From assembly GCA_026874595.1 (NCBI GenBank), contig CM049316.1:29931339-29995338 (forward strand): DNA of 64,000 nucleotides. The letters run 5' to 3'. The stretch is from Sipunculus nudus (Eukaryota > Annelida > Sipuncula > Golfingiida > Sipunculidae). The notes under the pieces are model-generated. The model made no database searches and was not told where the DNA came from. It saw nothing but the letters and a program-made list of their open reading frames with translations. The translations under genes were made by a program, and so were the position numbers. Every line of letters starts with the position of its first letter. Position 1 is the first letter of the stretch. Below, in pieces: positions 21,710 to 60,384 of this stretch.

Positions 21710-21715
21710 TTTATT
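21710..21715 (-). terminator. Poly(A) signal of the fusion gene
   Basis: AATAAA on the minus strand (TTTATT on +), about 60 bases after the stop codon. It implies a very short 3' UTR. Confidence 0.6.
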
Positions 21716-21775: not shown

Positions 21776-22000
21776 TTATTCTTCTTCCTCTTCTTGTTTT
21801 AGTTTATTTTTTGACACCATAGTCTTCATGTTAACACCTGTTTCACTGATAGCCATGATGGGTTTCATCGCGGCCAGCAGACTGTTGTACAATGTGGGGA
21901 ACATGATCTCCTGATTGGCCAGCAGCTGTTTCATCCGGTGACGTTCCTTTGGAGCCTCAAAGCAGGCTGGGCAATTCTCTGCTATGACTGGTAAGTGCTT
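21776..22000 (-). CDS. Fusion gene exon v (last exon, stop)
   Basis: Begins [20 protein letters not shown], then a helical segment ([20 protein letters not shown]) and a Glu-rich tail KQEEEEE before TAA at 21778-21776. NCPAC is at the position of the third cluster cysteine of TtcA (CNLC in bacterial proteins). Acceptor TTGTAG. Confidence 0.93.
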   Translation of the reverse strand, partial: KHLPVIAENCPACFEAPKERHRMKQLLANQEIMFPTLYNSLLAAMKPIMAISETGVNMKTMVSKNKLKQEEEEE

Positions 22001-25000
22001 CTACAAATACATGTGTAAAATTTAGATTTTCTCTCCAAGACAAGTAACTATAGGTGTAACAAAGCCACATGTGCAAACAGCTCAGGTTTACAACTTTTGT
22101 CTGTTATGAAACAAGTGACCCAGGGGTCATGGCGCTCAGCTGATGTCTGAAACTGACAAATTCTATCAACTTGGACTGCTGTCATTTTAGTATTTTTGCA
22201 ATTTTGTCTGTGGTAGTTGTGAAGAATCTATTGAATGGATTTCTTCAAATTTTATATGGTGAGTGCAAAATTTTTCTTTACTAGAACTGAACAATAATCA
22301 AGTCTGATTTTTTTGTGCTAAACACACATAAGTGTGCATTACTCAAAGAAAATGCATGAAAATTGAGAAAATGTGGATTTCACCACCATGGATGACAGAA
22401 AGTGGTTGATCGCTATAGCTCAGATGACATGGTCAGCTGAGCTAAATGAAGAAAGTATACTACATTTAGACATGTGTGACTGGGTATTAAATCATCCTTA
22501 AATTAACCATTCCAGAAGAAATGTCTCTAATACTGATGTGATAGGTAAATTACTACAAAATTATTAAAACAGCTGGGTTATAACTGGGGTACACACAACA
22601 AAATCATATTTAATGAAATTGATGCTAATGCATATCAAGTGCCCTCTGGTGAGAAAGTGGTTGACAAAACAGCCCAAAACTAAAGCCATGCACTCGGGGT
22701 TGCTTTTACTCATACTAGATGTGTCGGAACAACACGAAAGCCCCCGCCTGGGGCAAAATAGAAACATTTGTTAAATTTTGTCAAATTTTTTAAGTTCAGG
22801 AGGTGTTGTATGGTCAAAAGTAGGTCAACAAGGGCAAAATGCAACTCGATCTGTAACGGGTCATTATCAAGCAACACACCAAAAATCAGGCCAGTATCTG
22901 CAGGCATTGTGAAAAAGGTCCATATATGTGCATTTTTCATAAAAATTCTGTCTTTCATGAAATTTTCTATGTTCAGGATCTGTCATATGGTCAAAAACAG
23001 GTTAAATGGGACGAAACGCGACTAGATCTGTAAGTGGTCATTATGCGCCCACAGACCAAACATTAGGCCAGTATCTGTAAGCATTGCATTGCGAAACTAG
23101 GATATTAGCAAAAGCTGATAATCAGTTATAAATTTAAATTGGAGAGGTATGTACCATGTTTCATAACAATTCACCAAATGCTTCCTGAGAAATAAGCTCC
23201 TAAGTTTTTTTTCTATACCAAGCTCTGTGACCTTGAAAAGTAGGTCAAGACCACCCATCTCTGAACTTGACCAAGATTTTGTAAATATAATGCAGTAGCA
23301 CTGAAGTAACCTGTGTTGAATACCTTTGGAGATATCCTGCATAAAAGGCCAAAATTGAAAAATCTGATAAAATTTCATTAAAAAAATCAGAAATTGCAGG
23401 TGGCGCCACCAAAATTGTGCAGCACGTACAGACCATCAGTCCCAATGATCATAGTAAGTTTTGTGAAAATCCACACAATGGTTCCTGAGATATAAGCTTC
23501 TGAGTGTTTTTCTATAATCAGCTCTAAAATGTAGAAAAATGGGTCAAGGTCACCCATCTTTGAACTTAATCTCGATTTTATCGATATACATCTTCACTGA
23601 CGAAATAAAATTCCAATAGTGAATCCTTTTATAGATATCCCCCTCACAAGGTAAAAGTTAAGACGCGGAACAGACAGACGGACGGACACCGGACAGACAG
23701 ATGGATGGACAGATAGACAGACAGCTTGGGTGACGACAATAGCCAATCAGCCTATGAGCTGAGGGCTAAAAACGGCTGTACATGTACATTTGTCATGAAA
23801 ATTTATATTTTTCATGAAATTTTCTATGTTTAGGAGCCGTAAAACAATCAAAAGTAGGACAACCAGAACGAAACGAGAACTCGATCTGTAACTGATCATT
23901 ATCTGCCCACACACCAAAAATCAGGCCAATATCTGCAGGCATTGCGAACAAAAGTCCGTACATGTGTATTTGTCATGAAAATTTCTATTTTTCATGAAAT
24001 TTTCTATGTTAAGGAGCCATAAAACGGTCAAAAGTAGGTCAACCGGGAAGAAATGCGAACTCGATCTGTAACTAGTCAATATCTGCATACACAAAAAAAA
24101 TCAGGCCAATATCTGCAGGCATTGCGAACAAAAAAACGTACATGTGTATTTGTCATGAAAATTTCTATTTTTCTTGAAATTTTCTATGTTTAGGAGCCGT
24201 AAAAGGGTCAAAAGTAGGTCAACTGGGATGAAACGCGAACTCCATCTGTAACTAGTCAATATCTGCAAACACACCAAAAATCAGGCCAATATCTACAGGC
24301 ATTACGAACAAAAGTCAGTACATGTGTATTTGTCATGAAAATTTCTATTTTTCATGAAATTTTCTAAGTGAAGGAGCCGTAAAACGGTCAAAAATAGGTC
24401 AACCGGGACGAAATGCAAACTCAATCTGTAACTGGTCATTATCTGCCAAAACACCAAAAATCAGGCCAATATCTGCAGGCATTGCGAAAAAAAGTCCGTA
24501 CATGTGTATTTGTCATGCAAATTTCTATTTTTCATGAAATTTTCTAAGTTTAGGAGCCATAAAACGGTCAAAAGTAGGTCAACCGGGACGAAACGCGAAC
24601 TGGATCACAAAGTGGCGGGGGCATAAAAATGCATAAATCAATCCTCTGTGTCAATTTTCATGAAATACGATGAAACTCTTCTTCAAAGATCTTACATACA
24701 CACACACATCCAGATATTAGCAAACACGATAATCCTGTTTTTCATTATATTTTCTACCAATGATGAAAGATAACAATATATGTAATAAGATAAGTTTTTT
24801 ATTAATACCCCAACTTCTCCTAAACTTCTCTGAAAACCAACAACTGATCACATCAAAATATCAAATAATCTGATTTAAGAAATATCAAATAATTGACATG
24901 ACCAAATAATTGCCGAGATTAAAGTATTATTTTTTCCTGTGATGAGAGCTATGAGAAAACAAAACAAACTTACCTCCTCTGCAAACTGCCGTAAGTCTTT

Positions 25001-28000
25001 CTCCCTGACATATACAAATGGTCTTATCACCCTCAGTTCTCCACCACTGTAAATGAAAAGAATAATTTCATTTTGTCCAGTTTCTGTAAGTTCTTCTATG
25101 ACTGGGTGCACATTGGATATGGTGATATTTTTTATAGAAAGTGCTCAGATTAATGACCAGCATGTGACAATCAGGGGAGTATAAGCAGCAGAGTAAGAGA
25201 ATCAAATACCTATTGCCTAAGTCAGGAGGGTATGTATTCACCTGTGTTCATGTTTGAGTTTGTGTATGTTTGTTCACAACATATATCACAGAATCAAGAA
25301 TGGGATCTCAACAAACTTTCAGAGCATTTCAGGAATGGGCCAATGAAGAAACAATCAGATTTTTGTTGGGATCCGGCACATGATCCTGATTCAGGAACAT
25401 CAATGAAGATTTATAAATGTATATCCACTCATATAGGAAGGACATGGTGGATGCTTGCACTCATTAAAATGCAGATCTCCAGTCTAAAATATAATCATTT
25501 TATTTGTTCAATTTTCTTGATTCATCTTACTTTAAAGTGAAAGTGTTGGCTTGAGTCTTTCAGCTGAAGATAACTTTATAATATGAATGGCTCCAACATC
25601 CAATCAATATTATAAGTGATTGTTTCTGTCTTGAAATGATGTCCATGAATGTGTCAATTCAGTTGACTGATTGACATATAAGTTATTAATAGAGAAACAA
25701 TATCTGAATATCATTATATATGATGTAATTCTGTGAATCTGAAAAATACTACATTTTTCATGCATGAAACATTACAAAAACATTTGACTGTATAATGTGG
25801 TACTAAATACTATGTTATGTTACACCAATAATATAAATTCAAAGTCAAATTAAGCATTTGATAAAAAAATCCTTCATCCAAGAAATAACAATAACAAACT
25901 ACACAAGCAAAATTTGTTACCACACTAGAAATTGATAACTGATATTTAAGTTATTCTTTAAACTATTTAGGCCTATTCATTCAGTATGAAGCCACTGTGT
26001 TTGGAAGAATCAATGCATGGCATTTTTAATTCAACATGCAAGGAAAAATACATACCTGACTTTGTAATGAGCTTTCATTGTTCTCAGTAGACCATTGTGG
26101 AATATAGACATCAGAAAGCTAGAAATAAATGTTGTATGTTTTAATAACTACGGATTACATTAAACAATTACATCATACATAATTTGTAATACATGTAGGC
26201 CTACTCAGGGTAAGAATTGGATTGATTTCATATGGGAAATCTTAGCACACTTTATAATAGTGTCCATTATTCTTGCCGTGACAAACATGACTCAGTTAAG
26301 GTCCTCCTACTGAAGAGCAGGGTTCTGGCCGTAATGTCAGAGGGCCGATCTGGTGCTACCATTATTTACACTCACTGTATGTACAGTCGAGCCCACTTTG
26401 TGTCATATCAGTTAATAGAAAATCCTGTTTATTGTCACATAAATCTGAAATCCCAAACCATTTCCTATATAATCAATGGTAAATCTGACCGTTTAATATC
26501 ATGGAATATTGTCATAATCCCGTTTATTGTCATGCTTCTAACCCTTGGCAAAGATACCAGTTGGCAGTTAATATCACATCAAACGTCGACAAGGCGATGA
26601 ACGAGGCCAAGAGCCTGTAATCGATCAGGCGTATCAAACAATCGCTCAGGCGTATCAAACGATTGCATCTCCCACCTGTGTGCGGCAGTTTAGTGCAGTA
26701 ATGCATGCGGGTCACTCCCCGTTAATTAGCTAATTAACGTCTTAAGATACCATGGTAATCAAAATCATTGCGTTTTTTTCGTACGTTAACAAAGGCGATG
26801 TTTGCGGTCACATATCATACATAATGAACTCCTGGCCTTTGAAAGGCCGCAGTTTACACTTCAGTTACGTTTCGCCGAGATGATATGAAGCACGAGCTCT
26901 AAACGTTGCTTACGACTGAAAATCCCCTTTAAGGGCCCGCGAAAAGGTGGAGGTTTTGTGAGCACTGGAGGAGATACCCGGTGCAAAACCTTAATCACGG
27001 CAAAACTTTAGAAAGTTGACAATGGCATGACGATGCCCCCTCCCCGAACAGTCCTGTCATAAAGACGATCATGGAAGTTTGAGTCATGAAAAAGATATCC
27101 AGAAAATAAGGCGCAATAGTCGGGGAAAGAATTATCTAGTAAAACAGTTTGCCTACGCATTACGTTATTACTGTGCCGCATATTTCCAGACATTTGACCT
27201 CATGACCCAGAAGCTACGTCTCCTTCTGTTTGCAAGTCAGATTTTAAGTCAGTTACTGTGGAATGCGGCACAAAACCTACAGGAAATAAATTATCAAGTG
27301 CACATAAACATAATTTGATATGCCGTTGTGCAATAAAATATTCATAAACATTTCTGTTTCCTTTTTTATTGACGATTTATTTAATATCATTTGAGATATA
27401 TCGCTTCTTCTATGACTCAAAAGGACATCGATGTCGAAGCCCGCATAATGTCACATCCCGGTTATTATCATAATTTATGTATGCACCACCAATAAGCGGG
27501 CTTGACTGTATATTCATAATATACACAAATCTTGGTTGAGAAGTTTTGTTGAGAGTTGGTTTGAGAAGGGCTAGCAAAGGTATACCAGTAGTTTAGTCTG
27601 GTTTACCTTTATTTTGTATCTGTCAGTTTTAAGTCAGTTTCAATGTGGTTAGGAGACATTACAAATAATGAAAAAGGTGGACCTCAAATTATGACTGCAT
27701 GGTATCATAACTTATGAAATCCATTTTGTCAGAAAATTGTCAATTCACCTTTCAGACAGGTCATCTAAGTGCTGGCCCAGAGCTAGGACATTATAACCTT
27801 GCCTCCTGGCCGCAGCATATATCCTTCCTCGCTTCATCCTGCTGCAGAAACTACATATACTGGCCACCTCATATGAGAGATTCTGGGCTGTCTCCAAGAT
27901 ACCTGGGATATAAGAATACTAACTGTTAAATCAAGATATGTCTTAAAACAAAGGTTACCTTAGCATTCTGATCGACTGTACCCCATGATTTATCTGTTCT

Positions 28001-31000
28001 ATCATCTTTTGCATTATCTTTATCACTAACTAAAAAAAGAACAGTTTTTGACAGGTGAACAATTTTAACAAGACTGTAAACATATAAATGAGAGAGGAAA
28101 CAGCCTGTATTGGCTTGATCATGATCACATCCTTAATTTGAAATGAACTGGTCTACTTTCGAAGTACCAGTTATAATAAAGTTAATCATTTTTTATGAAT
28201 GGCATAAAATTTTATAGGAATTACAGATCTAAGGATGTCTATGTGCAAGGTGTTTAAGGCAATCTACGCTCTTTACACAGTGCTTTAACTATAGGTCTAC
28301 TTCCTACATGGTAAGCCCTGTTTGTTATGACCTCTTATCCTGAATTGCTACACCAGAGGGGAGCACTGTATTTTTGCCCAATCAGATGAGACCTTGTGCT
28401 GGAAGACACGGCCAAACGAGGAATACACTGAGCCAATCATGTTGATTTCATTTTGAGTGACAGCTCATCGCCCCGGTGCCTGTATGAACAGGCCACAGGC
28501 TCAGAGAGAATTGCCACAGACGTGGTTTACTTTGGGCCTTGGGCACATAGGATGCCCTGCTGGTGAGCTGTAATTCAAACGAAACGTAACAACAAAGGCT
28601 GCGTGCACACCTCGGCTAGTTTCAGTTCTGCAGACACAAGACCCATGGCTACGCTAACACAGTCATACTGTCAGAATCGAATCTGTCGATGATGGGAGAA
28701 TACAGAGGAAGCAATTAAAATTCGAACGTAAACTTGTCTTCAAACGGCGCTTGAAATGCAGCTATGGGCGGAGCCAGGATGCCTGTCGCGTGTTTGTTTA
28801 TTGGCATCTTGTTGGCTGCTTGTCACATCATACGTTTTGTTCCGCAGACAACGAAACCACCATCTGGTGTCTAAATATATCATAAAAGGTCAAAGCTGGC
28901 AGCGTGAAAATCAGTTGCTTCTTTAGAAGCGTAAGATTTCCGCTGCCTCGGGAGCGTAAAGGCAATTGGGTTCTTGTATGTAAAATTAAAATAAACATTT
29001 TTTTATTATTTCACTTGCATCTTTCCCTGGTATGAGATAATGTGAACAGCATCTTGGAAGATTATAAATTAAGAGTAAATTTTTCATTGTGTTTGTATAA
29101 ATTACTTGCCCATTTTTATTATTGATCTGAAACCATACACCAATGGCCTGATTTGTTCTTGCATAAAGTTCTCATTCCACTCATACACATCATCCTGAAC
29201 TACTCACATTGTTCTTCATAGAAGTAAGGCACACCCAGACCAGCCAGGTACTTTTTTAATGGACTTGGATCATAGGAACTTGTCTGTGGATCAACGGTCA
29301 CTGCTCCAAACTCAAAGTTTAATCCCTGAAACAAGACAGACCATGAGAGGATACATGTGGAGAAGTGCACAAAAGAAATCCAGATTAAAGGTGTAGCACT
29401 ATCTTAAGAACAAGACTACATTAAACGAAAATGAATACAAAATATATTGCAAAGGATACTGATAATAATGCTATCAAGACAAATGTCTTTCTTCCGATGC
29501 TAAAACTAAATGTTTATATTAAGAAACATAATATATGTCACAACAGTAATCCAGATGTTTCCTTGATCTAGAAAATGCATCACATATTATATCACCTTTT
29601 CTGAAAATAAATATTTTTAATTTAAATGATTCTGAATTGCAATTTACAATGTATCATCAATGTAAAATTCCTCTTCTTTTTTTATTTGAGGATGTAAGCA
29701 TTATGTGTAATATAGCCCCCAAAACCCCCCCATTCCCTCCCTGTGAATGGTGGTTTTGTTAGTTAACTGTTGTGAGCTTTTCTGTATTAATGAGAATTTT
29801 CTCTGTTAAAGTTTATACGCCAGAGTAAGCCAACCGAAAATTTTCCCTTATTGGGCCTATTATCGCCCATCCCGCCTCGTTCCCGTGTATCTAGGTCACA
29901 CTTCCGTTACCCATAATCACATTTTCGAAGGCGTAAGGAAGAGGACTGGGAGGGAGCGATGTTTGTAATACAGAAAAGCTCACAACAGTTTACTAACAAA
30001 ACCACCATTCACAGGGAGGGAATGGGGGGTTTTATTACGTAAACATAATTGTGAGCTGTTTCTGTATTAATGAGAAAAAAACAGACATGCCTTGGGGAGG
30101 GAGCACCTACCTGTAACGCTGGAACGAGGAATCTCAGTGCGGTGATGGAGCAGCAGTCGACGTCGGTGGCGGAACCGACGGAGAGGAAGAAGACGGCCGG
30201 GAAAATTGTAGGACCTCACCAGACGCGATCACAGGGCCCATGGAGTAGAGGCCCGAAGCCTGGAGCTGAACATCTTTCAGATAGAAGCGTGTGAACGTAG
30301 ATGGGGATTTCAAGTATCCCTTCTTGACCAACTGATTGGGTGAAATCCCGGAGAAATGGGCCAAGGAAGTCGAAATTGCCCGAATGTCATGGGCCTTGAT
30401 GTGAAATTGGTCCAATGTGGATTGAGAAGCTGATTCATATGCGGCGACGATAGTAGCTTTGAGCCACGAACTAATTGTGATAGGGCTAATCTTCTTATTG
30501 GAAGATGTGACTTTTGTAGAAATAAACAACTTCTTGCGCCCCCCCGTAAAGGATGAGTAGCCTTTAGATAATAACGCAACGCATGAACCGGGCAATTGGT
30601 AGCCCCATAACGGTACTGACCGTTAGGGAGGGCCGGAACGTGCCAAGCAGACGGAGGGTCATCGAAATTTTGATTTTTCCTATAAAAATCCGGTGGAAAA
30701 TGTAGGGTGGCCAACGAACCGTCGGCCGCAATTTGCGTGAATTTCGAATCAGCCACGAGGGCATAAGCTCAGAACGGCGACCAGCCGAGGCAAGAGCTAG
30801 GAGGAAAACCGTTTTCCGAGACAAATGGAGAAGATGGGCCGAACGCAACGGCTCATAAGGGGGTTCCCGGAGGTGACTTAAGATGACGTCCAGGCGCCAG
30901 GAAGGCGCAACGTACCAAGGACGAGACGCACGGGCATGAACCCCCTTGAGAAAGTCCGACACCAACGGGTGATGAAGGACACGATTGTGACCCAGCGGAC

Positions 31001-43000: not shown

Positions 43001-44577
43001 ATGAGCATCAGTGTTGTAGTTATTGAGATACTGGAGTTTTTGTATCAATTTTTCATTTTCCGGGGGGGGGGGGGGGGGGGTACTTTTGGAGCCATACAAC
43101 TTAATGGATATGGGTAACGGAGACCTAATTTCAGGTTTCCATGGAGATTTTTCATGGGTCTCCCTGTGTGTAAAGAATGAAGATTCTAGGTCCAGTTGTT
43201 ATGATATGTGCCCTGTTAACAGATGTTCATATCTTAAAAGGTCTCAAAAATTGAGAAAAAAATTCGTAAAAAATGGAAAAATACAGGTGGCGCCACCAGT
43301 CTGCAGAAACTGATGAAGCATCTCATGATCAATATGCATGCCAAAAATCATGACCATCAGTGATGTAGTTAATGAGATATTGAAGTTTTTGTATGAAATT
43401 TTTTAATATTCTGGGGGGTACTTTTGGGCCCGATAGCTCACAGGATATGGGTAACAGAGACCTAATTTCTGGTTTCCAAGGAGATTTTTCATGGACCTTT
43501 CAGAAAGTCAAGTTACAAGATTCTAGGTCCAACGGTTACGATTTGTGCCTGGTTAACGGACAGACAGACGGACAAAAGACAAAGAGTGATCGCTATAGCT
43601 CAGCATGACTGAAAGTCAGCTGAGCTAAAAAATACAGGTGGCGCCACCAGAATGCAGAAACTGATGAAACATTTCATGATCAATATCCATGCAAAGAATC
43701 ATGGTGATCAATATAATAATTGTTCAGATACTTGAGCTTTTGTATCAAATTTTCCATTATTCCGGGGGATACTTCGGAGCCCCATAGCTCAGAGGTTATG
43801 GGTAACAGAGACCTAATTTCAAGTGTTTAAGGAGACTTTTCATGGGCCTCTCAGCATATCAAGAGAGAAGATTCTAGGTCCAGTTGTTACGATTTGTGCC
43901 ATGTTAACAGATGACCACATCTTATGAGGTCTCAAAAATAGAGAAAAAAATTCATAAAAATAAAAAAAATACAGGTGGCGCCACCAGATTGCAGAAACTG
44001 ATGAAACATTCCATGATCAATATCCATGCAAAGAATCATGGTGATCAATGCAATAGTTGTTCAGATACTGGAGCTTTTGTATTAAATTTTGCATTATTCT
44101 GGGGGGTATTTCAGAGCCCCATAGCTCAGAGGTTATGGGTAACAGAGACTTAATTTCAGGTTTCCAAAGAGACTTTTCATGGGCCTCCCGGAATTTCAAG
44201 AGAGAAGATTCTAGGTCCAGTCATTACAATTTGTGCCCTGTTAACAGATGACCACATCAAGAGGTCTCAAAAATAAAGAAAAAAATTCGTAAAAATCAAA
44301 AAATATAGGTGGCGCCACCAGACTGCAGAAACTGATGAAACATTCCATGATCAATATCCATGCACAGAATCATGGTGATCAATGCAATAGTTGTTGAGCT
44401 TTTGTATCAAATTTTCCATTTTTCTGGGGGGGTACTTCGGAGCCCCATAGCTCAGAGGTTATGGGTAACAGAGACCTTATTTCAGGTTTCCAAGGAGATT
44501 TTTCATGGTACTCCCTGGATGTCAAGTTAGAAGATTCCAGGTCAAGTGGTTACGATTTGTGCCTGGTTAACGGACAG

Positions 44578-44626
<49 letters not shown>

Positions 44627-53600: not shown

Positions 53601-56600
53601 TACACATGCCAAATTTCAGGTGAACAATTCAAACCACTGCCGAGATATGAGTTATTTTAGCCCAAGTCAAATGAATAGGTGGACACTGTGCAAAAATTGT
53701 TGCAGGTGGCGCCACCAGTTTCTTGTATGATAAAGAGCTATTTGAGACCTTAACACATGCAAATTTTCAGAAAGATACATCAAACCAGTCCGGAGATATA
53801 AGCATGGATGTCTGCAGCGTGAACGTGAATGTAGGTGCGCCACCTGTCATAAAATCAAGAAAGCTATCCAGGATGTATGCGCATGCCGAATTTCAGGTGA
53901 ATCAGTCAAACCACTGCAGAGATATGAGTGATTTTAAGGCAGACAAATGCGGCAGCGGCAGCGGAACCTGGTCAAAAACATAGTATCCGCAAAACTTTGT
54001 TTTGGCGGATACAATTAATATCTTATTAAGCAAAAAAGGTATGGTTCTCAGGCGCATTTTTTTTTTTAAAATCAGTGCAGGCGGGCAATTTTTTTTTTAA
54101 CTTTTTTTGTATGTTTGAATAGAAATGTCAACTAAATAGGTAAAAGCACTAGAAATCAAAGGAAATCTTATAAAAATTGTATTATTTTATCTTCTTGGAA
54201 GATGAAAATCAAAATAAAAATTTTTGATGTAGGGGGTTAAATTTTATGCGGGCCATGCCTGAGAACCATACCTTTTTCTTTTGGCCTTAGTATGCAAAAG
54301 TAAACAATTAAAAGTATAAAAAAAAAATGTCATGAACTGTAAAGTTCCAGCATATCCAGCCCTGCCTCACTTATTCTGTCATTACAGAACCTTCAATGTA
54401 ACTGTCAAGTATCAGCCCAGTGTTGGAGTTAACCTAATGATAAAGTAAGGTCTGGTTATCAATATAAATGTTAAAACTGATTATTGGCCATCCAATGTCT
54501 ATAAAACATTTATATTTAAATAACAAAATTTCAGTATATTTGCTTTTATAACCATACCTGACAACAACATATCCACAAGTGAGATATAAAATTAAAAGAC
54601 TTGCCTTTCAAACCACTTACTTAGCCTTAAATATTGTAATAAATTGTCCCTGGCGTTATCGTAAACCCACCTGAGCATAAGGTCCAGCGCAGGCACATCC
54701 TCCTCTGGCCTGTATACCAAACAGATCATTGAGTAAGGCACACACCAAGTTATGATGAAGGAACAGACCAGACGAACCATGTTGTATGAGAAATGAGAAA
54801 ACGGGAAGCCTTGATGCTGCGGTGTTACCCAGCAGGACCAGACCATCTACATTCTTCCAGTATTCAACAGCCTTCCTGTTACGGAAAAGAAGCGAAGCAC
54901 AAGTTCAGCATAGGTACTGTTCCTTTATTTAAAGACAGAGAACTCCTCAGGTTTATTCCTAAAATAAAGGTTAGATTCAAGCTGTAAACGCCCACTTCAG
55001 TAATGACAAATTTATCACTATACTTGTCAACAGGATGTTTTACAGAGTCTATATCACTTGAGTTATCTGGTGAATTGACTTTCTCTGAGAATGGCGGTGG
55101 CAACGATCATTATTTATTGTAAATTAATCCTAATCTTGTTAACAAATATGCCAAATTAAAAAAAAAACCTATAATATAAGCATTCATAGATTTTAATACA
55201 TATAAAGGTACAAAATGATATATTTTTGTATAAACAATAATTCTTTCAACAGTCAATTCACTTCTACAAATTTTTAATTTTTATCAATTCAACACATCTG
55301 TCATGCTCTCTCTCGCTCTCTTTCTCTCTCATATATATCTATTGTAAAAGGTGTAAAATATTACCAATGTAATTTTGGCAACCATGAAGGAAAATGATAA
55401 AATCCTGCACTCAAACCATGAGGAATAATATTATCAATGGATCACATTCATACACTATGAGCAAGCAGTGTCATCTACAGGGTATATAAGAAAGCTACCT
55501 GTAGAGCTGGTGTTCTCTGTCCATGATGGCTGCTGCAGTCACTGATTCCTTCAGCTGGAACACAAGGCCTGCTCTGATTGTCTCCACGATGGCAGGTGTC
55601 CCACCCTCCTCCCTCATCTCAATCTCCTTCAGGTAACGATGGCTGTCTCTTCTCACCTGTCAGGTAAAAGAAATATTTACTTTAGTTGCATGATATGGTA
55701 TCTGCAAATACTGTTTGTTGAAGGTCAAAATCAGTACATATTTTCACAAAGTTTGTCACTTTGCATGTCTTCTTGTTTGAAAATATTTCCTTATATCTGA
55801 AAGATATGATTATAAGCCATTACAAGGTTTAAATGAAAGTTATGTAACACAGAATGAAAGTTTTAAATATCTGGTGACATGAACTGTATTTTATTTGATG
55901 ATACTCAGCTGTTGAAAGACTAAATTGCATTTAAAAATAAACAATGCAGACAGAATAGACAAGAAAAGCTCAACTTTTGAGGTTCCAATGAAAGACTCAA
56001 AGACCATTTTATTAAGGGAATCAATCTATTTCTGGCAAAACAAAGATGATTAAAGTTGTCTTGGAGGCTTCACTCTACATGTATATGTAAATTCCATTTT
56101 GATTATAAAGTGTTTACAGATTAAATGTCACATGAAAATACAGTTGTATAAGTTTATAAGTTTGAATTTTATAATAAAAATGTATTAATTATTCTTACAA
56201 AAAAGACTGATCCTCCTCCACCTAAAGATGGCACCAAATTCCTGAACAATTTCTTCTTGGCAACCAGAATACCTGAAATAAATACCAAAAAAATACATAC
56301 TGACCACAAGGACACAGATATTATCTGATATTCCAGAGAAAACATTTGTCTCATGAAAACATTTGTTGAAATAATAAATTATAAATAAACATCTCTCAAG
56401 ACTCAAGATATATATCCTGATTCAAGCTTCAACAGACTCAGCTGCCACCTGGTGTGATTATGCTGAACTATCTTTGCCAGGTATGTGACACAGGCCCACC
56501 AGTGACTAAAGTCACTGTCAAGTATAAACGGGTATCTTCTAATTAGTTTGTTAGGGTATCATAGGAATTAATATTATAAACTTACCTGGAGTTTGCACAC

Positions 56601-59600
56601 CACCCACAAACTTGTGTGCTGATATAAATATGGCATCTTTGTAGGCCAAGCTTGCTAGATTCCTGAAACGACACAAATGTAGATATTATAATAAATTTCT
56701 CCAACTGCAAGGTAAAATAGTTGAAAACATGAAATTATTAAATGAAAACCTTTTCTGTTCTAAAATAAATAACTTTTTGTTATTTCCTTTGTAGTGTAAC
56801 TGTTTACCTTCATATCACATATAATCTCTGCATTTCAACAAAACAATCTCTGAAATGTCTGTTTAAGCAGAACTGGTTTAACAAACAGGTCTTTGAAGCA
56901 AAGAAAAAGCCAGGGGCACTTTTGTGCATATTATCCTGATAAACAAAAATCTTATTGAATTTGTCAGTCACACTTTAAGGTATATGGAATACCTCTGTCG
57001 TTTTAAATGCAATTTATCCCTAATTTATGACCATGGTCTTGATCTGACACTCTTACTATCATTATCATCATCAGATAAGCCCTTCTGATTTGACCATAGT
57101 GGCTACATCAGAAACAAAGCTCAAGGAGCTATTATTTATTTTCAGTAAATATAATCAAGATCCAAGTGATCATATATGACACACCCTTCCGCAACTGGAT
57201 TCATATCAATCTCAACATAAGGTCCAGCGGTTGCATAGTCCCACAGTGCCAGTGCCCCATGTGTGTGTAACATGACAGAGATAGCGTCCACGTCAGCCAG
57301 GTGGCCTGTCACATTAGATGCGGCTGAGAAACATCCCACCATCTCACGACCAGTAGAGGACCAGGCCTGGAAAATAATCATGCATCTAAATGAAGATCTA
57401 CCTAACAATACTGTAATACCATTCTTAAAGTTACTTCTAAAATATACTTAATAATGTTCAACCTCGTAAAGTTTTGAAATGCTGTGCTAGTCTGTTACTT
57501 ACAAAAAGTAATGTAAATGGTTGACACCTTTTAAACAAGACTAGATGCCTGTAGATTCTTTTGCACACGCTTTCGGTTGCTCGGCCCCCTTCCTCAGGAG
57601 TAAATGGAGCTGTTCCTCATGTAGCTGTTCAGCTGCTGAATCTGCTGAAATCTAGGACCATTGGTACCCCAAAACTTTTGAAATTCTGAAGATTTTTCCC
57701 TCAAATTTCACATACATGTTGTTTGCACCAGGTTCTCAGAGAATGAAAACTGGTGACATTTGCCTAGATCTTAAGGGCTCAATATGTCTAATTGTAGTAT
57801 TATTATGACAACAATTCTTTTTAAGTGCTACTATGTTTTCTTCAAATTTGATGTTGAAGTTCTGTCCATCACATTCTCAGAGAGTCTGAAAACTGGTAAC
57901 ACTGATTTTCAAAGTTTAATCTTTGGAAATCTAGGATCATTGTGAGCCATTTACTTAGGAAGTTCTGAAGATATTTCCCTCACATTTAATGAACAAGTTG
58001 TTTCCAACAGATTCTTGAAGGAGTCTGAAAACTGGTGACCTTCGCCTTGATCTTCAAGATCAAATTGCAGATATATGTTTTCTTTTAGTGCCGTAACTTT
58101 TGAGATCATGCATATTTTTTCCTCATATTTAGGGACAGGGGAGCCCATTGGGGGTGGGGGAGGGGAGATATAGTTGCAAAGACAAAGCCATTTTAGTTAT
58201 TTAATTCAATAAAGTGACACAGCTTGTAAAATATCTTACAATCAACAAAATATATCAATTTGTACCAATCTACTGATATGCTGGTCCAGCTCTAGTGCTA
58301 AATCATGTTATCATGATAACATATCCCATAGAACTAACCTTCAGAGACTGTTCTAGATGTTCTAAATCAACATTTCCTTCTCCATCTTCTTTTATTCTGA
58401 TAACAGTAGCATCTATATCTCGCCATGGCAACATATTGGAGTGGTGTTCCCAAGGCCCACAGAATACAACCTGGAGAAAAAATTATGAGATTTTTTTTCC
58501 AAAGTTCAGATCACTCAAGATGGATGTGATATTAAATGATATGACTTTTGTTTATAGGGTTTTAGTGATGTACACTGGTAAGTCCACGGATAGTGATATA
58601 TGCTGATAAAACACATGATCAGAATATAAAGATTAAATATTGTATTGTTATGATCCAATGTCTTCCTTGATGGACAGACAAACGTTATCACCCTGTAGAC
58701 AGCAACAAACAGATATTAGATTAGTTCAAACATAAAAATATGAGGCATGTTAAATGAAATTCCATTGGGAAAAACTGGACACACAATCAAAACAAAAGTG
58801 GAGTTATTTCAGATGCATTACCAATTATTCCTTTAATGTATATAGACCAAAGCATGGCAAAAAAAAAATTTTTTTTCCCTAAGGAAATAAATTTTAATTT
58901 TTCATCAGGAAACATAATTTATAAGAGGAAGTTTAATTATCTAAACCATAATATGCCATACATGTATGTATTTTGTATTGTATAATGAGCAAATTTTGTT
59001 ATACTGGTACATATCAGATGATACTTACCGGTGGTTGCTTGAAGTTCAGAGCATGTATGATTTTATGTACAGCTGCTGTGCACCCACTTCCAGTAAAAAC
59101 AATCGCATCATGTTCACTGGCATTCACCGCGTTCCTTACTATGTCCCTGCAAGAGGAATTATAAAATCAAATTTAAATATACAGTTATTTTTAAGCTTTA
59201 AGTATAGCAGGTTATGTATGAAAGGGCCTAGAAACTACCCAGAAGTAAATATGACATTAACGCAAATCTTTGGGGGTCCACTAAGATTTCACAATTTTCC
59301 TTTAAAGCTCTGACAAAGATCAAATCAAATACATTCAGCTCTGGTTCTTTTGAAATAAACAATTATGGAATTACATCCATGACAGTGATATAAAATATTA
59401 CTAGGACCCGGGCTATACTTTCATGTTTAGTACATGAAATATAAGCGTAGAGAAATTGTGTCATTGGTCATCAACTCAATGATTACATCATAGGTCAGTT
59501 CAGCCCACAAGCAAAGTCGCTGACATAAGGTGATGTCCATCGACACTGTGGACACTTTCACCCAGATGCAGATATTAACACTTTCAGGTTTCTAGGGAAT

Positions 59601-60384
59601 GTTATAAGTAATTTTTGCCCTATCCCAATATAGTAGAGAATCAATCAACAAAAGCATATAATGGAGAGATCCAGAAAACCTAATACATTCTGTGGATCAT
59701 TCTGCCTCCAAAAATATTAATACAATCTTTTCATATCATCTTGAGTACAACTGCCAATGTACAAACTAACCAATAGTGATAAAAAATATCACCTTTTGAT
59801 GAAGGTATGATAAAGTTACCTGGCTTCATGTCTGAACATGGTGGTCTGTCTTGCTGTGAGGGTGGTGGTGGTGTGTGTGTTACCGTATTCAGGCAGTACA
59901 TTCTGTTGTATGAAGTCTTCAAGGAACTTCAAAGACCTTTATAAAGAAAGCAGGACATTTAAATTTTCACAGATAAAATATTCTACATATCAACATAATG
60001 GGGAACAAGGTGGGGCCTGTCGGCTGCAAGAAACACAAATATAAGACTGACGTGATTTTTTTTCAAATGACTGTGGTTTTCAACATCAGCTCATATAGTC
60101 AAACTCAGATTGAACTGCATAGGGCAATATTTACATGCATCCTTGAAAGATTTTCCCAAAGCAGTTTAAACATATAGGTATCTTTTACTGTCACTGATAC
60201 TATTAAAATTACTAATTTTTAACTTTGCCCAAGGTGCAATAGCACAAAAACAGCAATGGTAATATGCATACATAAAAGAATTTAAGAAACAAACTCAGGT
60301 AAATTTTTCAGCAAAAGTAATTTTAATTAATTTAAATTAAACTTGATGCTCACCTGCCTGAGGCTATGTAGTCACAGTAGGAAA
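21776..60384 (-). CDS. Fused cysteine-desulfurase-like (aminotransferase class V) and TtcA-like PP-loop tRNA-thiolation protein
   Basis: Gene-level entry. Twenty-two exons, listed separately, join with perfect phase agreement into about 1086 residues; the N-terminal few dozen residues lie right of 60384. Order: PLP-dependent class-V aminotransferase domain (visible residues ~1-380; LWDYA aspartate, SAHK lysine, [17 protein letters not shown]); helical extension (~380-510); long linker with about a dozen cysteines (~510-836); PP-loop domain (SGGKDS at ~855, CSFC at ~930, NCPAC near the C-terminus). Known: bacterial TtcA puts 2-thiocytidine in tRNA using an Fe-S cluster held by such cysteines, with sulfur from a cysteine desulfurase. 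Inferred: this protein couples both steps. The DIRS element, pogo-like element, MITEs and pearl-like arrays all sit in its introns. The substrate is a prediction only. Confidence 0.88.
22109..22445. mobile_element. Minimal modular element (337 bp) with conserved end signatures
   Basis: Left end AAACAAGTGACC, imperfect palindrome GACCCAGGGGTC, then GCGCTCAGCTGA. Right end ATCGCTATAGCTCAGATGAC...GTCAGCTGAGCTAA forms a terminal hairpin. GCTCAGCTGA and TCAGCTGAGC are inverted. It lacks the tandem core and GACA microsatellite of its larger relatives, so the ends define the family. Located in the last intron of the fusion gene. Confidence 0.65.
22715..24630. repeat. 180-bp tandem array with a nested repeat element
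   Basis: Starts CTAGATGTGTCGGAACAACA with GCCCCCGCC and ends with the inverted GGCGGGGGCATA at 24613-24623. Units carry CATGAAATTTTCTATGTT, GGTCAAAAGTAGGTCAAC and ATCAGGCCAATATCTGCAGG; the last motif recurs every 180 bases (about 23923, 24103, 24283, 24463). The array is interrupted at 23093-23770 by two ~300-bp units holding GGTGGCGCCACC (23399-23410), a GGACAGAC microsatellite and an end-like GCCAATCAGCCTATGAGCTGAGGGCTAAAAA region, i.e. a nested second element. Pearl-like nonautonomous element by layout. Confidence 0.7.
24974..25046 (-). CDS. Fusion gene exon u (PP-loop domain)
   Basis: Encodes [20 protein letters not shown] then FAEE, matching the TtcA-type 'xIRPLxYxREKDLxxYAE' segment. 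Acceptor TTTACAG, donor GTAAGT. Confidence 0.95.
26056..26118 (-). CDS. Fusion gene exon t (PP-loop domain)
   Basis: Encodes [20 protein letters not shown], completing the SE-S-FLM helix of TtcA-like proteins (ETxLMNLxxxG in bacterial members). Acceptor TCTAG, donor GTATGT. Confidence 0.92.
26384..27508. mobile_element. Pogo-like nonautonomous DNA transposon (~1.1 kb)
   Basis: Ends CAGTCGAGCCCACTT and AAGCGGGCTTGACTG are inverted repeats (13/15 match), flanked on both sides by TA. CAGT-starting TIRs with a TA duplication are typical of pogo/Tigger. GC-richer than flanking intron; no transposase recognised. Sits between fusion-gene exons s and t. Confidence 0.7.
27749..27902 (-). CDS. Fusion gene exon s (CxxC and HLDD)
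   Basis: Encodes [20 protein letters not shown], then [20 protein letters not shown] and [21 protein letters not shown] matches the CxxCxxxRRG cluster-ligand motif of TtcA/TtuA, and GQHLDD matches the GHHxDD motif of PP-loop thiolases. Confidence 0.95.
27903..29207. other. Fusion-gene intron r-s
   Basis: 1.3 kb. The part 28370-28950 is less AT-rich than its surroundings and contains two CCAAT-type motifs, but no exon or inverted-repeat boundary could be supported. Confidence 0.4.
29208..29325 (-). CDS. Fusion gene exon r (PP-loop domain)
   Basis: Encodes [20 protein letters not shown] then [19 protein letters not shown], typical of the TtcA-like fold (AVTVDPQ...L..YL..LGVPYF). It follows exon q across the DIRS insertion, and the phases match. 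Confidence 0.93.
29674..29716. repeat. Direct repeat flanking the DIRS element (left copy)
   Basis: TTTTTTTATTTGAGGATGTA... through ATATAGCC, matching 35357-35399 in direct orientation with about 10% mismatch. It abuts the outer left end of the element. Confidence 0.75.
29771..29927. repeat. DIRS left inverted terminal repeat
   Basis: Starts TGTGAGCTTTTCTGTATTAA and ends ATAATCACATTTT. Inverted match to the right ITR. Outward of it, 29719-29770 is unique to this end and is copied inverted inside the element. Confidence 0.9.
29969..30073. repeat. DIRS internal complementary region
   Basis: Two abutting parts. 29969-30034 is the reverse complement of the left outer end (29719-29785). About 30028-30073 is the reverse complement of the right outer end (35303-35347). 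They meet at GGTTTTATTACG, i.e. a copy of the junction expected when the two termini are joined in a circle, as known for DIRS1. Confidence 0.85.
30134..31637 (-). pseudogene. DIRS tyrosine recombinase, two frameshifts
   Basis: First frame (31637 to ~30764): [32 protein letters not shown] and the box-I arginine in [14 protein letters not shown] one-base loss near 30763 shifts to the frame holding [20 protein letters not shown] second shift near the C7 run at 30540 leads to the frame with the H-x-x-R motif [15 protein letters not shown] and the tyrosine in [13 protein letters not shown], HxxR and Y are all present but never in one frame, so the enzyme is broken in this copy. The reading frame starts inside the 3' part of the RT ORF. 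Confidence 0.85.
31057..33288 (-). CDS. DIRS reverse transcriptase / RNase H ORF
   Basis: Open for 743 codons. RT motifs: [20 protein letters not shown] (about residues 120-140), [24 protein letters not shown] and the catalytic [11 protein letters not shown] (about 265). RNase H motifs: [15 protein letters not shown] (about 435), the glutamate in [25 protein letters not shown] and ADALSR (about 530). All catalytic acidic residues are visible. The last ~190 codons overlap the recombinase ORF in another frame and are probably not conserved coding beyond GRPEFYLF. This is the only element ORF that looks intact. Confidence 0.9.
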   Translation of the reverse strand: MRLGPPSAFPALGLRLWLPLSHGARLLRLPGVPAVLSLFVVAPLNEVRPRNDSIALVGAHLSAHFPAWAGITSQRLILSTVKFGFRLTFLHAPPVTLHPFFTPPPPDPAKCLALEEAIQSMLDKRAIFEVSPSTVGFYSRLFLVPKPHSRWRPIIDLKRLNSFIRPPPFRMFNIHAVLRIVRRMDWAFKIYLTDAYFHVPIHPSSQPFLRFAYQNRVYQFRALPFGINMAPWIFTMLVHTVTSYRRSQGISVLPYLDDWLVHVADRSLLLSHRSRVLILLRNLGFLVNAEKYLLTPTQSLQFLGVTLDFASGTASLPRDFALKLRRLIRSFLTQRRVDSRTAASLHGALNWAASFIPFGCLYLRPIQSILRRYGLLRLTSVCPTILPFRSTWRSLRPWMDLSFLLRGVPFSRDVDCTIYTDASLLGLGAHLADLRASGMWSQSERLLHINILELRAVRRAISHWSPRLTGRHILIRTDNTTVVAYINKQGGTRSPSLIQETYLLFDLCLSLRASVRASHLPGVLNILADALSRHPASLPSPPLLPLPVIRSVFARLGRPEFYLFDFPSPPPPFLCLPRRVYVSLATVSPTRRRPGGLTGFSLRFRRLLSSAMSFSACPARTRLPCFSSFRFILRLHGFLCGARFSLAPRLYYRSASRSRRSLKRVAHFGRALYAHACSYWTPQGSGHFKPGCSPCLGSPSPFFGPHLRLPVASLHGVGDFPRNLPFRSVACGCFGFFRVLTAG
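33339..35052 (-). pseudogene. DIRS gag-like region with Cys-rich knuckles, frameshifted
   Basis: Best start is the ATG at 35052-35050 ([18 protein letters not shown]). The N-terminus has C-x2-C, C-x2-C and C-x2-C/H pairs (CVAC, CFGC, CFHC). Coding continues in other frames after shifts near 34.87, 34.1 and 34.0 kb, through a Pro/Ser-rich middle to a helical segment ([18 protein letters not shown]; then [18 protein letters not shown]). It is the first ORF of the element by position. The knuckle is N-terminal, unlike typical retroviral gag. Product inferred from position, not homology. Confidence 0.6.
35172..35327. repeat. DIRS right inverted terminal repeat
   Basis: Reverse complement of 29771-29927 with only a few differences. 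The outermost 20 bases (TGTTTACGTAATAAAAC end, to 35347) have no counterpart in the left ITR and reappear in the internal complementary region. Confidence 0.9.
35357..35399. repeat. Direct repeat flanking the DIRS element (right copy)
   Basis: TTTTTTTATTTGAGGATGTC... through AAATAGCC, ten bases outside the right end of the element. Same orientation as 29674-29716. Confidence 0.75.
35516..35638 (-). CDS. Fusion gene exon q (PP-loop)
   Basis: Encodes [20 protein letters not shown] then [19 protein letters not shown] is the PP-loop ATP-pyrophosphatase signature; the surrounding '[19 protein letters not shown]' is TtcA/TtuA-like. The donor GTATGT lies 168 bases from the right end of the DIRS element. 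Confidence 0.96.
36183..37160 (-). CDS. Fusion gene exon p (978-bp linker exon)
   Basis: A single phase-0 exon of 326 codons. It begins [20 protein letters not shown] and ends [17 protein letters not shown] at a GTAAGG donor. The first ~35 residues look folded ([17 protein letters not shown]). The rest is Ser/Thr/Asp/Asn-rich and probably disordered, with about a dozen cysteines including CRTC, CNFMC and CPCDH. No known domain is recognised. It links the desulfurase-like half to the PP-loop half. Confidence 0.9.
37771..37815 (-). CDS. Fusion gene exon o (45-bp microexon)
   Basis: Encodes [15 protein letters not shown], an amphipathic helix, between TTTCAG and GTAACC; phase 0 at both ends. 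Confidence 0.82.
38377..38484 (-). CDS. Fusion gene exon n
   Basis: 108-base phase-0 exon: [20 protein letters not shown] then [16 protein letters not shown]. Continues smoothly from HKDFQ of exon m; acceptor CTGAAA-complement TTTCAG, donor GTAAAA. Confidence 0.88.
38485..40859. other. Fusion-gene intron m-n
   Basis: Contains an 81-codon minus-strand ORF at 38576-38821 of protein-like composition but uncertain status, a slightly CpG-richer stretch at 38990-39700, and repeat-derived DNA at 40120-40712 (two diverged GTCAAGG(C/T)CACTCTC units, ending GGGGATACAATTA, which resembles the right end of the 52880-54013 element). Confidence 0.45.
40860..40907 (-). CDS. Fusion gene exon m
   Basis: 48-base phase-0 exon encoding [16 protein letters not shown], flanked by TTTCAG and GTAGTG. 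Separated from exon l by a repeat-filled 8-kb intron. Confidence 0.88.
41480..44670. repeat. Tandem array of ~340-bp units (nine units) with internal element ends
   Basis: Units recur with GATCAATATSYATGC near 41509, 41807, 42125, 42640, 42979, 43329, 43679, 44016 and 44350. Each carries TTCTGGGGGGTACTT, ATAGCTCANAGGATATGGGT, AACAGAGACCTAATTTC, GATTCTAGGTCCAG, TTTGTGCCCTGTTAACAGAT and GGTGGCGCCACCAG. The left-end signature AACAAGTGACCCATGGGTCA is embedded at 42401. GACA-type microsatellite plus terminal hairpin occur at 43555-43628 and again at 44574-44674. Nested or concatenated pearl-like elements in intron l-m of the fusion gene. Confidence 0.85.
44671..47280. other. Intron with degenerate repeats
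   Basis: 44690-45190 and 45690-45850 carry diverged repeats (CCTAAGGAAG, GGCCCYAGCAAAAACTTTAAC, GACGGACAGACATACAG). 46300-46700 is slightly CpG-richer with an uninterpreted minus-strand ORF (46487-46762). (AAAT)n lies at 47111-47140. No exon supported. Confidence 0.45.
47281..48846. repeat. Second array of ~340-bp units (four units) with two terminal hairpins
   Basis: Same units as 41480-44670 (GATCAATAT at about 47372, 47838, 48204 and 48540). End signatures GTGATCCCTATAGCTCAGATGA...TCAGCTGAGCTA at 48104-48147 and 48802-48843. After the first hairpin the sequence runs directly into another core unit. Confidence 0.85.
49081..49192 (-). CDS. Fusion gene exon l
   Basis: Encodes [20 protein letters not shown], then [17 protein letters not shown]. 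The '[20 protein letters not shown]' helix is the usual C-terminal lobe of this aminotransferase subgroup. Confidence 0.92.
49765..49824 (-). CDS. Fusion gene exon k
   Basis: Encodes [19 protein letters not shown]; acceptor TTGCAG, donor GTTGGT. Phase 2 at its end is completed by exon l to give [10 protein letters not shown], a class-V aminotransferase C-terminal lobe segment. Confidence 0.85.
49825..50551. other. Fusion-gene intron j-k, right of exon k
   Basis: No feature supported before the modular element that begins at 50552. Confidence 0.4.
50552..52445. mobile_element. Modular element with conserved left end and 3' terminal hairpin (~1.9 kb)
   Basis: Left end AAACAAGGGACCTATGGGCC...GTGCTCAGCTGAA at 50552. 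Right end: (GGAC)n/ACGG microsatellite at 52358-52394, then CTATAGCTCAGATGAC and the inverted GTCAGCTGAGCTAA at 52445. The last ~600 bp (from about 51835: CGTGCCATGGTCAAAGTTGG ... ACGTGCCACATC) is homologous to 63262-63780. Interior AT-rich with a poly-G at 51541-51553. No ORF supported. Confidence 0.65.
52662..52723 (-). CDS. Fusion gene exon j
   Basis: Encodes [20 protein letters not shown], leading from the aminotransferase core into the C-terminal extension. Donor GTAAGT splits the next Glu codon, restored by exon k. Confidence 0.85.
52880..54013. mobile_element. TIR-bounded element with dimeric tandem repeats (~1.13 kb)
   Basis: Perfect 14-bp inverted ends TGTATCCGCCAAAA (52880-52893) and TTTTGGCGGATACA (54000-54013). 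The interior is an alternating dimer of ~278 bp: A half GGTGGCGCCACCAGTTTCTT, B half GGTGGCGCCACCTGTCATAA, with boundaries near 53006, 53149, 53278, 53427, 53554, 53705 and 53835. Near the right end, GTATCCGC...GGCGGATAC also makes a hairpin. Apparent ORFs (e.g. 52992-53177) are repeat translations. In fusion-gene intron i-j. Confidence 0.75.
54030..54286. mobile_element. PIF/Harbinger-like MITE, copy 2 (deleted, ~257 bp)
   Basis: Inverted AAAGGTATGGTTCTCAGGC and GCCTGAGAACCATACCTTT ends with the same interior AAAATCAAAATAAAAATTTTTGATG; shorter than the other copies by an internal deletion. The right end GGCC|TTA is intact, the left GGCC is eroded. Confidence 0.75.
54671..54875 (-). CDS. Fusion gene exon i (desulfurase cysteine loop)
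   Basis: Sixty-eight codons; includes [20 protein letters not shown], then [20 protein letters not shown] and [12 protein letters not shown]. The RGGCxCAGPY loop holds the cysteine pair sitting where SufS/CsdA-type enzymes carry their persulfide cysteine (RxGxxCA). Confidence 0.95.
55499..55656 (-). CDS. Fusion gene exon h (aminotransferase)
   Basis: Encodes [20 protein letters not shown] followed by LVFQLKESV. The E-x-GTP segment corresponds to the EAGTPN/S motif of cysteine desulfurases. Acceptor GACAG, donor GTAGCT. Confidence 0.93.
56199..56272 (-). CDS. Fusion gene exon g (aminotransferase)
   Basis: Encodes [20 protein letters not shown] then GSVFF, the segment that follows the PLP lysine in class-V enzymes (GxLxxxxxL...P...GGG). 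Confidence 0.9.
56586..56662 (-). CDS. Fusion gene exon f (PLP lysine)
   Basis: Encodes [20 protein letters not shown] then GVQTP. The lysine in SAHKFVGG is the expected Schiff-base lysine of the S-x-H-K motif. Acceptor TTTCAG, donor GTAAGT. Confidence 0.95.
57185..57366 (-). CDS. Fusion gene exon e (cofactor-binding aspartate)
   Basis: Sixty codons including [20 protein letters not shown] and [20 protein letters not shown]. The aspartate in LWDYA is placed to pair with the pyridine nitrogen of PLP. Ends at a GTGTGT donor; the split glycine codon is completed by exon f. Confidence 0.93.
57536..58150. repeat. ~140-bp tandem repeat block
   Basis: GAGAATGAAAACTGGTGACA, GAGAGTCTGAAAACTGGTAA and GGAGTCTGAAAACTGGTGAC recur at about 57742, 57880 and 58021. 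CTGAAGATTTTTCCCTCA and ATCTAGGACCATTG-type motifs recur every second unit (~275 bases). Diverged array in fusion-gene intron d-e. Confidence 0.65.
58339..58470 (-). CDS. Fusion gene exon d (aminotransferase)
   Basis: Encodes [18 protein letters not shown], then [19 protein letters not shown]. The EHHSNMLPW motif is the class-V aminotransferase equivalent of the EHHA/SN cofactor-stacking histidine region. Confidence 0.93.
59029..59146 (-). CDS. Fusion gene exon c (PLP phosphate-binding turn)
   Basis: Encodes [20 protein letters not shown] then GCTAAVHKI. The FTGSGCTAA turn occupies the place of the TSGTTEA-type cofactor phosphate-binding loop of cysteine desulfurases. Confidence 0.92.
59820..59936 (-). 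CDS. Fusion gene exon b (aminotransferase)
   Basis: Encodes [20 protein letters not shown] followed by [18 protein letters not shown]. The GNTHT segment and RHEAR helix are typical of class-V aminotransferases of this subgroup. Phases match exons a and c. Confidence 0.9.
60354..60384 (-). CDS. Fusion gene exon a (first visible)
   Basis: 31-base exon encoding SYCDYIASG, matching the Y-x-D-x-x-A/S-G segment found near the N-terminus of class-V aminotransferases. Acceptor TTTACAG, donor GTGAGC. It must be preceded by a further exon, which I could not find up to 64000. Confidence 0.8.

Follow-up and report, generated by a model that had tools for sequence, protein, structure and literature searches.

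A gene of Sipunculus nudus that encodes a cysteine desulfurase-like domain and a TtcA-like PP-loop domain in one predicted polypeptide

Introduction

Does an animal gene carry, in a single open frame, both a putative sulfur donor and the tRNA thiolase that it would supply? The question arises from a first-pass annotation of a 64,000 nt stretch of the Sipunculus nudus genome (GCA_026874595.1, contig CM049316.1, 29,931,339 to 29,995,338; hereafter the window), in which a cysteine desulfurase-like enzyme was proposed to be fused to a TtcA-like enzyme. Published TtcA is described as requiring IscS together with a [4Fe-4S] cluster whose ligands are three of the cysteines in two CxxC motifs, with the reaction mechanism termed unclear in the sections drawn on here (PMC5372745, PMC5372739), and the available part of a review lists its product, 2-thiocytidine (s2C), for archaeal and bacterial tRNA only (PMC7694415). 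Our search of the open-licence literature, conducted partly on titles and the beginnings of abstracts, found no animal or fused TtcA. Proteins that combine the two domains may be present among the automatic annotations of other invertebrate genomes.

Results

A 23-exon gene encodes both halves

We refined the exon borders by hand and joined exons 2 to 23 (60384 to 21776, minus strand) into 3263 nt, or 1087 codons, interrupted by no stop before the terminal one. AG precedes all 22 of these exons and GT follows 21 of them, the last closing with the stop, and the phases are compatible, in agreement with the earlier reading of 22 phase-compatible exons forming one ORF. The gene is longer than that reading had it, however, since the exon with the start codon lies beyond the window. 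This exon 1 has an in-frame stop upstream of its ATG, a GTAAGA donor in the correct phase and a stretch ending in GPYGRRL and similar to the N-terminal sequence in the bacterial family related to the N-terminal half of the protein (N-half). Adding it raised the score against a profile of that family from 568 to 602 bits. The full model of 23 exons, with GT-AG borders at 22 of 22 introns, encodes a 1145-residue protein whose sole stop is terminal, and an AATAAA is found downstream of this stop at 21715.

The exons were also compared with profile HMMs built from bacterial relatives alone (56 N-family and 14 C-family sequences, animal sequence excluded), searched against every window ORF of at least 12 aa on both strands at i-E <= 0.01. 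Nine N-family and six C-family matches were obtained, all of them minus-strand exon pieces in profile order, and nothing outside the model reached this threshold among the window ORFs. The 11 other matches listed were weaker than 0.1; three of these are model exons and eight lie elsewhere. Exons 12, 15, 16 and 17 gave no match of their own. The exons, with i-E values for single-exon matches, are as follows.

64500-64326 (window-equivalent, outside the window; contig 29995838-29995664), minus: exon 1; ATG, donor and phase
60354..60384, minus: exon 2; AG/GT borders and phase; alone i-E 0.14
59820..59936, minus: exon 3, N-half; i-E 1.1e-8
59029..59146, minus: exon 4, N-half; i-E 1.3e-8
58339..58470, minus: exon 5, N-half, EHHSN; i-E 9.6e-16
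57185..57366, minus: exon 6, N-half, LWDYA; i-E 2e-24
56586..56662, minus: exon 7, N-half, predicted PLP lysine in SAHK; i-E 2.7e-6
56199..56272, minus: exon 8, N-half; i-E 0.002, borders
55499..55656, minus: exon 9, N-half, EEGGTP; i-E 4.6e-16
54671..54875, minus: exon 10, N-half, predicted catalytic-cysteine loop (10 residues); i-E 8.4e-23
52662..52723, minus: exon 11, N-half; alone i-E 8, within the joined-protein HMM match, borders
49765..49824, minus: exon 12, insertion compared with the bacterial family; borders and phase only, profile gap, the least certain exon
49081..49192, minus: exon 13, N-half; i-E 2.4e-11
40860..40907, minus: exon 14, N-half; alone i-E 0.28, within the joined-protein HMM match, borders
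38377..38484, minus: exon 15, C-terminal region of the N-half; no match alone; borders, phase, joined-protein HMM match
37771..37815, minus: exon 16, C-terminal region of the N-half; no match alone; borders, phase, joined-protein HMM match
36183..37160, minus: exon 17, bridging exon with the N-half end (11-residue tail), a linker of ~280 residues and the start of the C-terminal half (C-half), APPRSIFKP; joined-protein matches
35516..35638, minus: exon 18, PP-loop SGGKDS; i-E 2.9e-14
29208..29325, minus: exon 19, C-half; i-E 1.1e-14
27749..27902, minus: exon 20, first CxxC (CSFC) and GQHLDD; i-E 1.8e-19
26056..26118, minus: exon 21, C-half; i-E 6.9e-8
24974..25046, minus: exon 22, C-half, 10-residue stretch; i-E 1.5e-7
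21776..22000, minus: exon 23, second CxxC (CPAC) and terminal stop; i-E 2.2e-19

All nine motifs quoted in the first-pass annotation were located on the minus strand, at the positions below. The short ones among them recur by chance, SAHK at four further places and CSFC at one.

57246-57232, minus: LWDYA, N-half
56622-56611, minus: SAHK, N-half
55611-55594, minus: EEGGTP, N-half
54706-54689, minus: RGGCAC, N-half
35584-35567, minus: SGGKDS, C-half
27855-27844, minus: CSFC, C-half
27840-27826, minus: RMKRG, C-half
27777-27760, minus: GQHLDD, C-half
21976-21962, minus: NCPAC, C-half

Three exon candidates proposed by the gene finder (61265-61203, 40698-40640 and 20880-20812) were left out of the model by hand, as were retroelement frames in the automatic exon chain. 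A decayed gene was ruled out by the single stop at the very end, and bacterial contamination by the 22 introns and the 79 Mb contig that hosts the gene (the assembly comprises 1.43 Gb in 153 contigs).

A bridging exon joins the two halves

In the joined protein, the N-profile matches residues 26-596 (602 bits) and the C-profile residues 877-1123 (359 bits). Exon 17, which is 978 nt long and encodes residues 569-894, contains both the end of the N-family match and the beginning of the C-family match. Its N-half tail is the counterpart of the LRWFPMP-like sequence with which the closest bacterial N-proteins end, and its APPRSIFKP that of the PPKSLLR-like starts of bacterial C-proteins; the intervening linker, probably flexible, has 12 cysteines in ~280 residues. 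Since this one exon carries the last block of the N-half and the first block of the C-half, a false join of two genes was rejected. Both halves are encoded as one intact gene, for which exon 17 is the strongest evidence, and the proposal of a single-polypeptide fusion is borne out by the intact start-to-stop model together with this exon. The accompanying statement that no stop, poly(A) signal or plausible start separates the halves does not hold to the letter for poly(A) signals and starts: AATAAA occurs at 37944, 37549 and 36722, and there are several ATG codons. Given that a single 978 nt exon bridges both halves, these signals matter little.

The N-half is related to SufS-like desulfurases

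The N-half was assigned to Pfam Aminotran_5 (E 2.4e-40), and a sequence search of the PDB gave 43 matches at E <= 1e-3: 42 desulfurases, selenocysteine lyases or CsdA-type proteins, including one entered simply as Aminotransferase, and a sulfurtransferase. Among curated NCBIfam models, its best desulfurase score was 125.2 bits against a SufS cut-off of 475.1, and it fell below every cut-off listed (SufS, CsdA, NifS, IscS). As no curated desulfurase cut-off was reached, we call the family desulfurase-like, not a proven desulfurase.

When bacterial and archaeal genomes were scanned, 98 relatives were obtained, the best 80 of which were retained. The query held both halves and the best 80 of 98 all matched the N-half, so that they are not a fair sample of C-half relatives. 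Stop-to-stop frames measured 560-650 aa at 65 of the 80 loci; four exceeded 900 aa, all labelled Planctomycetota, and four were shorter than 500 aa, of which two are truncated at the edge of a contig. From these loci, 56 (>38% identity, ORF >450 aa, L023 left out) were used for the family HMM, 30 for the structure alignment and 26 for the tree. EHHSN, the lysine of SxHK (Lys269) and both cysteines of RxGCxCAGPY (Cys415 and Cys417) are invariant in all 56 aligned bacterial relatives. In alignments to the B. subtilis and S. aureus SufS proteins, the N-half keeps the PLP lysine, the histidine over PLP and the catalytic cysteine; the counterpart of animal Cys417 in B. subtilis SufS (5j8q) is Cys361, the catalytic cysteine of that enzyme. 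The predicted structure of a Sandaracinus relative (L001; pLDDT 86.1), computed for this relative rather than for the animal protein, matched SufS-type desulfurases or selenocysteine lyases in the 50 matches listed of 1544 (E <= 0.001).

Like SufS-type desulfurases, the N-half thus has the PLP lysine, the histidine, the catalytic cysteine and, judged from the bacterial relative, the fold. It differs in scoring below the listed cut-offs and in being fused, and its relatives are longer. We conclude that the N-half is, by sequence, a full-length relative of a bacterial SufS-like (type II) family with predicted desulfurase activity, and the original desulfurase-like assignment stands on the family, the fold of the bacterial relative and the conserved catalytic residues.

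In the N tree, the animal N-half forms a long branch that meets another long branch within a bacterial clade. L003, a record that carries the title Klebsiella pneumoniae MAG, clusters in this tree with sequences of Sandaracinus and Nanopelagicales, and its organism label may be wrong. The planctomycete members L004, L005, L006 and L045 have frames of 967-1047 aa; by eye, the upstream part of L004 looks like cyclic-nucleotide-binding domains, which may mark a further fusion of the desulfurase-like family.

The C-half belongs to a TtcA-like subfamily

The C-half was assigned to Pfam ATP_bind_3 (E 3.9e-15), and its best NCBIfam model is TtcA, at 199.5 bits against a cut-off of 272; by the same model, a bacterial member of its subfamily scored 217 bits and a canonical control 490. 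Because the curated equivalog cut-off was missed, we file the C-half as TtcA-like and not as TtcA. SGGKDS, at residues 913-918, is the same in 14 of 14 subfamily sequences. Two CxxC pairs, Cys991/994 and Cys1081/1084, fit the sequence pattern of a cluster site, for which iron-sulfur binding is predicted; neither these four cysteines nor SGGKDS varies in any of 33 bacterial sequences, 14 from the subfamily and 19 canonical. In a tree for which a duplicate was removed from the 35 bacterial sequences to leave 34, the animal C-half lies inside the subfamily, which is split from canonical TtcA at 100/100.

A structure model of a bacterial C-half relative matched the TtuA and NcsA thiolases best, with TilS and LarE also listed. 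The C-half resembles the group II thiolases (TtuA, NcsA, Ncs6/Ctu1) in its PP-loop and, on the evidence of the relative's model, in its [4Fe-4S] thiolase fold. The group II enzymes are described as carrying five CxxC(H) motifs in the part of the literature consulted (PMC3980101), whereas the C-half has two CxxC pairs within the C-family match, with the linker cysteines outside it, and its sequence match to group II is weaker than that to TtcA. With TtcA it shares SGGKDS and both CxxC pairs, and TtcA is its best curated model; it differs in its separate subfamily, its score, its fusion to a putative donor and its presence in an animal. By sequence comparison, then, the C-half is a member of a bacterial TtcA-like subfamily that is distinct from canonical TtcA. 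The first-pass label of TtcA-like thiolase is upheld for family, catalytic residues and the fold of the bacterial relative, though it does not extend to canonical TtcA. A scan of a viral collection with the C-half found no relative.

Close bacterial relatives of the halves are not paired in the genomes tested, and the C-subfamily nearly excludes canonical TtcA

In one bacterial phylum, 115 of 299 genomes had C-half matches at 1e-20, only two of them close (56% and 48% identity) and the rest at 29-38%. Within the class of one of these close matches, a close subfamily member was found in 118 of 369 genomes at 1e-50 (42-61% identity) and canonical TtcA in 168 at 1e-60. Both were present in a single genome versus 53.7 expected, and neither in 84 (Fisher p 1.7e-39, with kinship among the 369 genomes uncorrected). 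This near exclusion is the pattern expected when one enzyme takes over another's job and suggests that bacteria possess a second, unnamed family of s2C enzymes; it may reflect few replacement events. Close subfamily members were found in 0 of 235 Myxococcota genomes, in a search run without a positive control.

The flanks of the 80 N-family loci (up to 8 kb, often shorter) contained no C-half match at 1e-5, and E <= 10 gave scraps. A close C-subfamily member was present in 0 of 50 N-family genomes tested, corresponding to 50 of the 80 loci, 17 of which hold 1e-15 matches of 30-37% identity. Reciprocally, the N-family was found in 0 of 40 C-subfamily genomes (from the 118), seven of which hold distant matches of 28-31%. 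N-family neighborhoods also showed no recurrent partner, the largest cluster of neighbors being present at 10 of 80 loci. With flank and co-occurrence searches both negative, direct descent from a bacterial operon or fusion was rejected within these samples, where an operon does not explain the pairing; as close relatives of the halves did not occur together in the genomes tested, nothing found in these prokaryotes indicates that the two families cooperate.

Discussion

The explanation we favor, and regard as rather probable, is that the gene encodes a one-chain, self-supplying tRNA thiolase, whose expression, activities, internal transfer and RNA target we infer. Residues ~26-596 would be a SufS-type (type II) cysteine desulfurase-like domain and residues ~877-1123 a group-I TtcA-like PP-loop thiolase. 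The N-half would move the sulfur of cysteine onto Cys417 as a persulfide, with PLP on Lys269, and the persulfide would travel directly or via linker cysteines, which could, speculatively, act as a relay, to an iron-sulfur cluster on the C-half held by Cys991/994 and Cys1081/1084. The PP-loop would then adenylate the C2 carbonyl of a pyrimidine in tRNA, with cytidine 32 as the likeliest site, and the oxygen would be exchanged for sulfur. Counted against this scheme are the missed TtcA and SufS cut-offs, the separation of the halves' close relatives and the listing of s2C for prokaryotes only.

Known systems offer partial parallels. The B. subtilis pairs YrvO-MnmA and NifZ-ThiI, dedicated desulfurase-thiolase pairs, are described as sufficient without further carriers (PMC5372745, in the part consulted). 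They are like the animal protein in dedicating a desulfurase to one PP-loop tRNA thiolase and unlike it in being separate bacterial proteins, of other enzyme families, encoded by neighboring genes. A natural cysteine desulfurase-rhodanese fusion of Pseudorhodoferax, reported as bifunctional in the section of the source seen (PMC8931425), likewise joins a desulfurase to a sulfur acceptor, but this acceptor is a rhodanese rather than a tRNA thiolase, and the protein is bacterial. By analogy with these systems, the animal protein should be its own donor-acceptor pair.

A possible reason for fusing lies in where the main desulfurase of animals is active: NFS1 does most of its work in mitochondria, so a thiolase outside them may gain from a donor of its own. 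Counting against this reason, cytosolic NFS1 has been reported in humans, according to the excerpted source (PMC3625234).

The fusion could also be real and have another target, with the N-half as donor and the C-half thiolating a different tRNA base or another molecule. We regard this as unlikely, if the strongest of the alternatives: it would fit the separate subfamily and sub-threshold TtcA score of the C-half, the many substrates of PP-loop enzymes (TilS and LarE being among the structural matches) and the restriction of s2C to archaea and bacteria in the review passages cited above, but the sharing of only one in 369 genomes by the subfamily and canonical TtcA is as expected for enzymes with the same job, and neither the PP-loop nor any of the four CxxC cysteines varies among the 33 sequences of the two groups. 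Considerably less probable is that the N-half is not the donor and carries out some other PLP reaction, such as that of a selenocysteine lyase or a general persulfide supply, the C-half obtaining its sulfur from elsewhere. The lack of a recurrent neighbor of the bacterial N-family and of a close C-half in its 50 genomes would agree with this, while the retained catalytic cysteine and lysine, and the physical linkage of the halves in one open frame, argue for a donor. That two genes, or a chimeric assembly, gave separate transcripts that we wrongly joined is scarcely credible: the AATAAA sequences between the halves and the lack of a standalone HMM match for exon 17 could be read that way, but this exon, within the 79 Mb contig, holds the end and the start of the two family matches in a frame whose probability of staying open by chance, from base composition, is ~4e-11.

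On the self-supplying reading, the fusion of a desulfurase-like to a TtcA-like domain points to direct persulfide transfer between the halves and predicts a thionucleoside in the tRNA of the animal. It is possible, though we hold it with some doubt, that the animal makes s2C or a like thionucleoside with a one-chain enzyme derived from two bacterial-type genes that are apart in the genomes tested. If true, this would be the first eukaryotic s2C system by those parts of the review literature considered here, thiolation would no longer depend on sulfur routes shared across the cell, and there would be a single protein on which the whole thiolation reaction becomes testable.

Other sequences in the window and the assembly

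One element within the gene is not part of it.

30313..35012 (approximate), minus: GC-rich retroelement in the intron between exons 18 and 19; RVT_1 E 2.6e-19 in 31060-33327

The element has reverse transcriptase and RNase H domains and is DIRS-like by eye; a Pfam scan of three frames neighboring it gave nothing. Another GC-rich block with long overlapping frames occupies positions 1-2400 of the window, and a 425 aa frame in it (305-1579, minus strand) had no Pfam match.

A search of the S. nudus assembly with the C-half found the exons of the gene and bacterial-looking matches on other contigs, the best at 34% identity. Ten bacterial-looking loci (L135-L144) were noted on contigs C61, C62, C72, C74, C77, C79, C80, C83, C89 and C90, with 97.5-100% identity among the best 30 pairs listed. 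In two of them, L135 and L136, frames that by eye look L25-like, peptidyl-tRNA hydrolase-like and FtsH-like lie close to a TilS-like frame, an arrangement known from Borrelia-like spirochaetes. Several strains of a single bacterium, perhaps one similar to the bivalve guest Cristispira, seem to be present in the assembly. Contig C123 (48119-48793, L131) carries an unspliced canonical-TtcA-like frame of 54% GC that seems to derive from a different bacterium in the sample.
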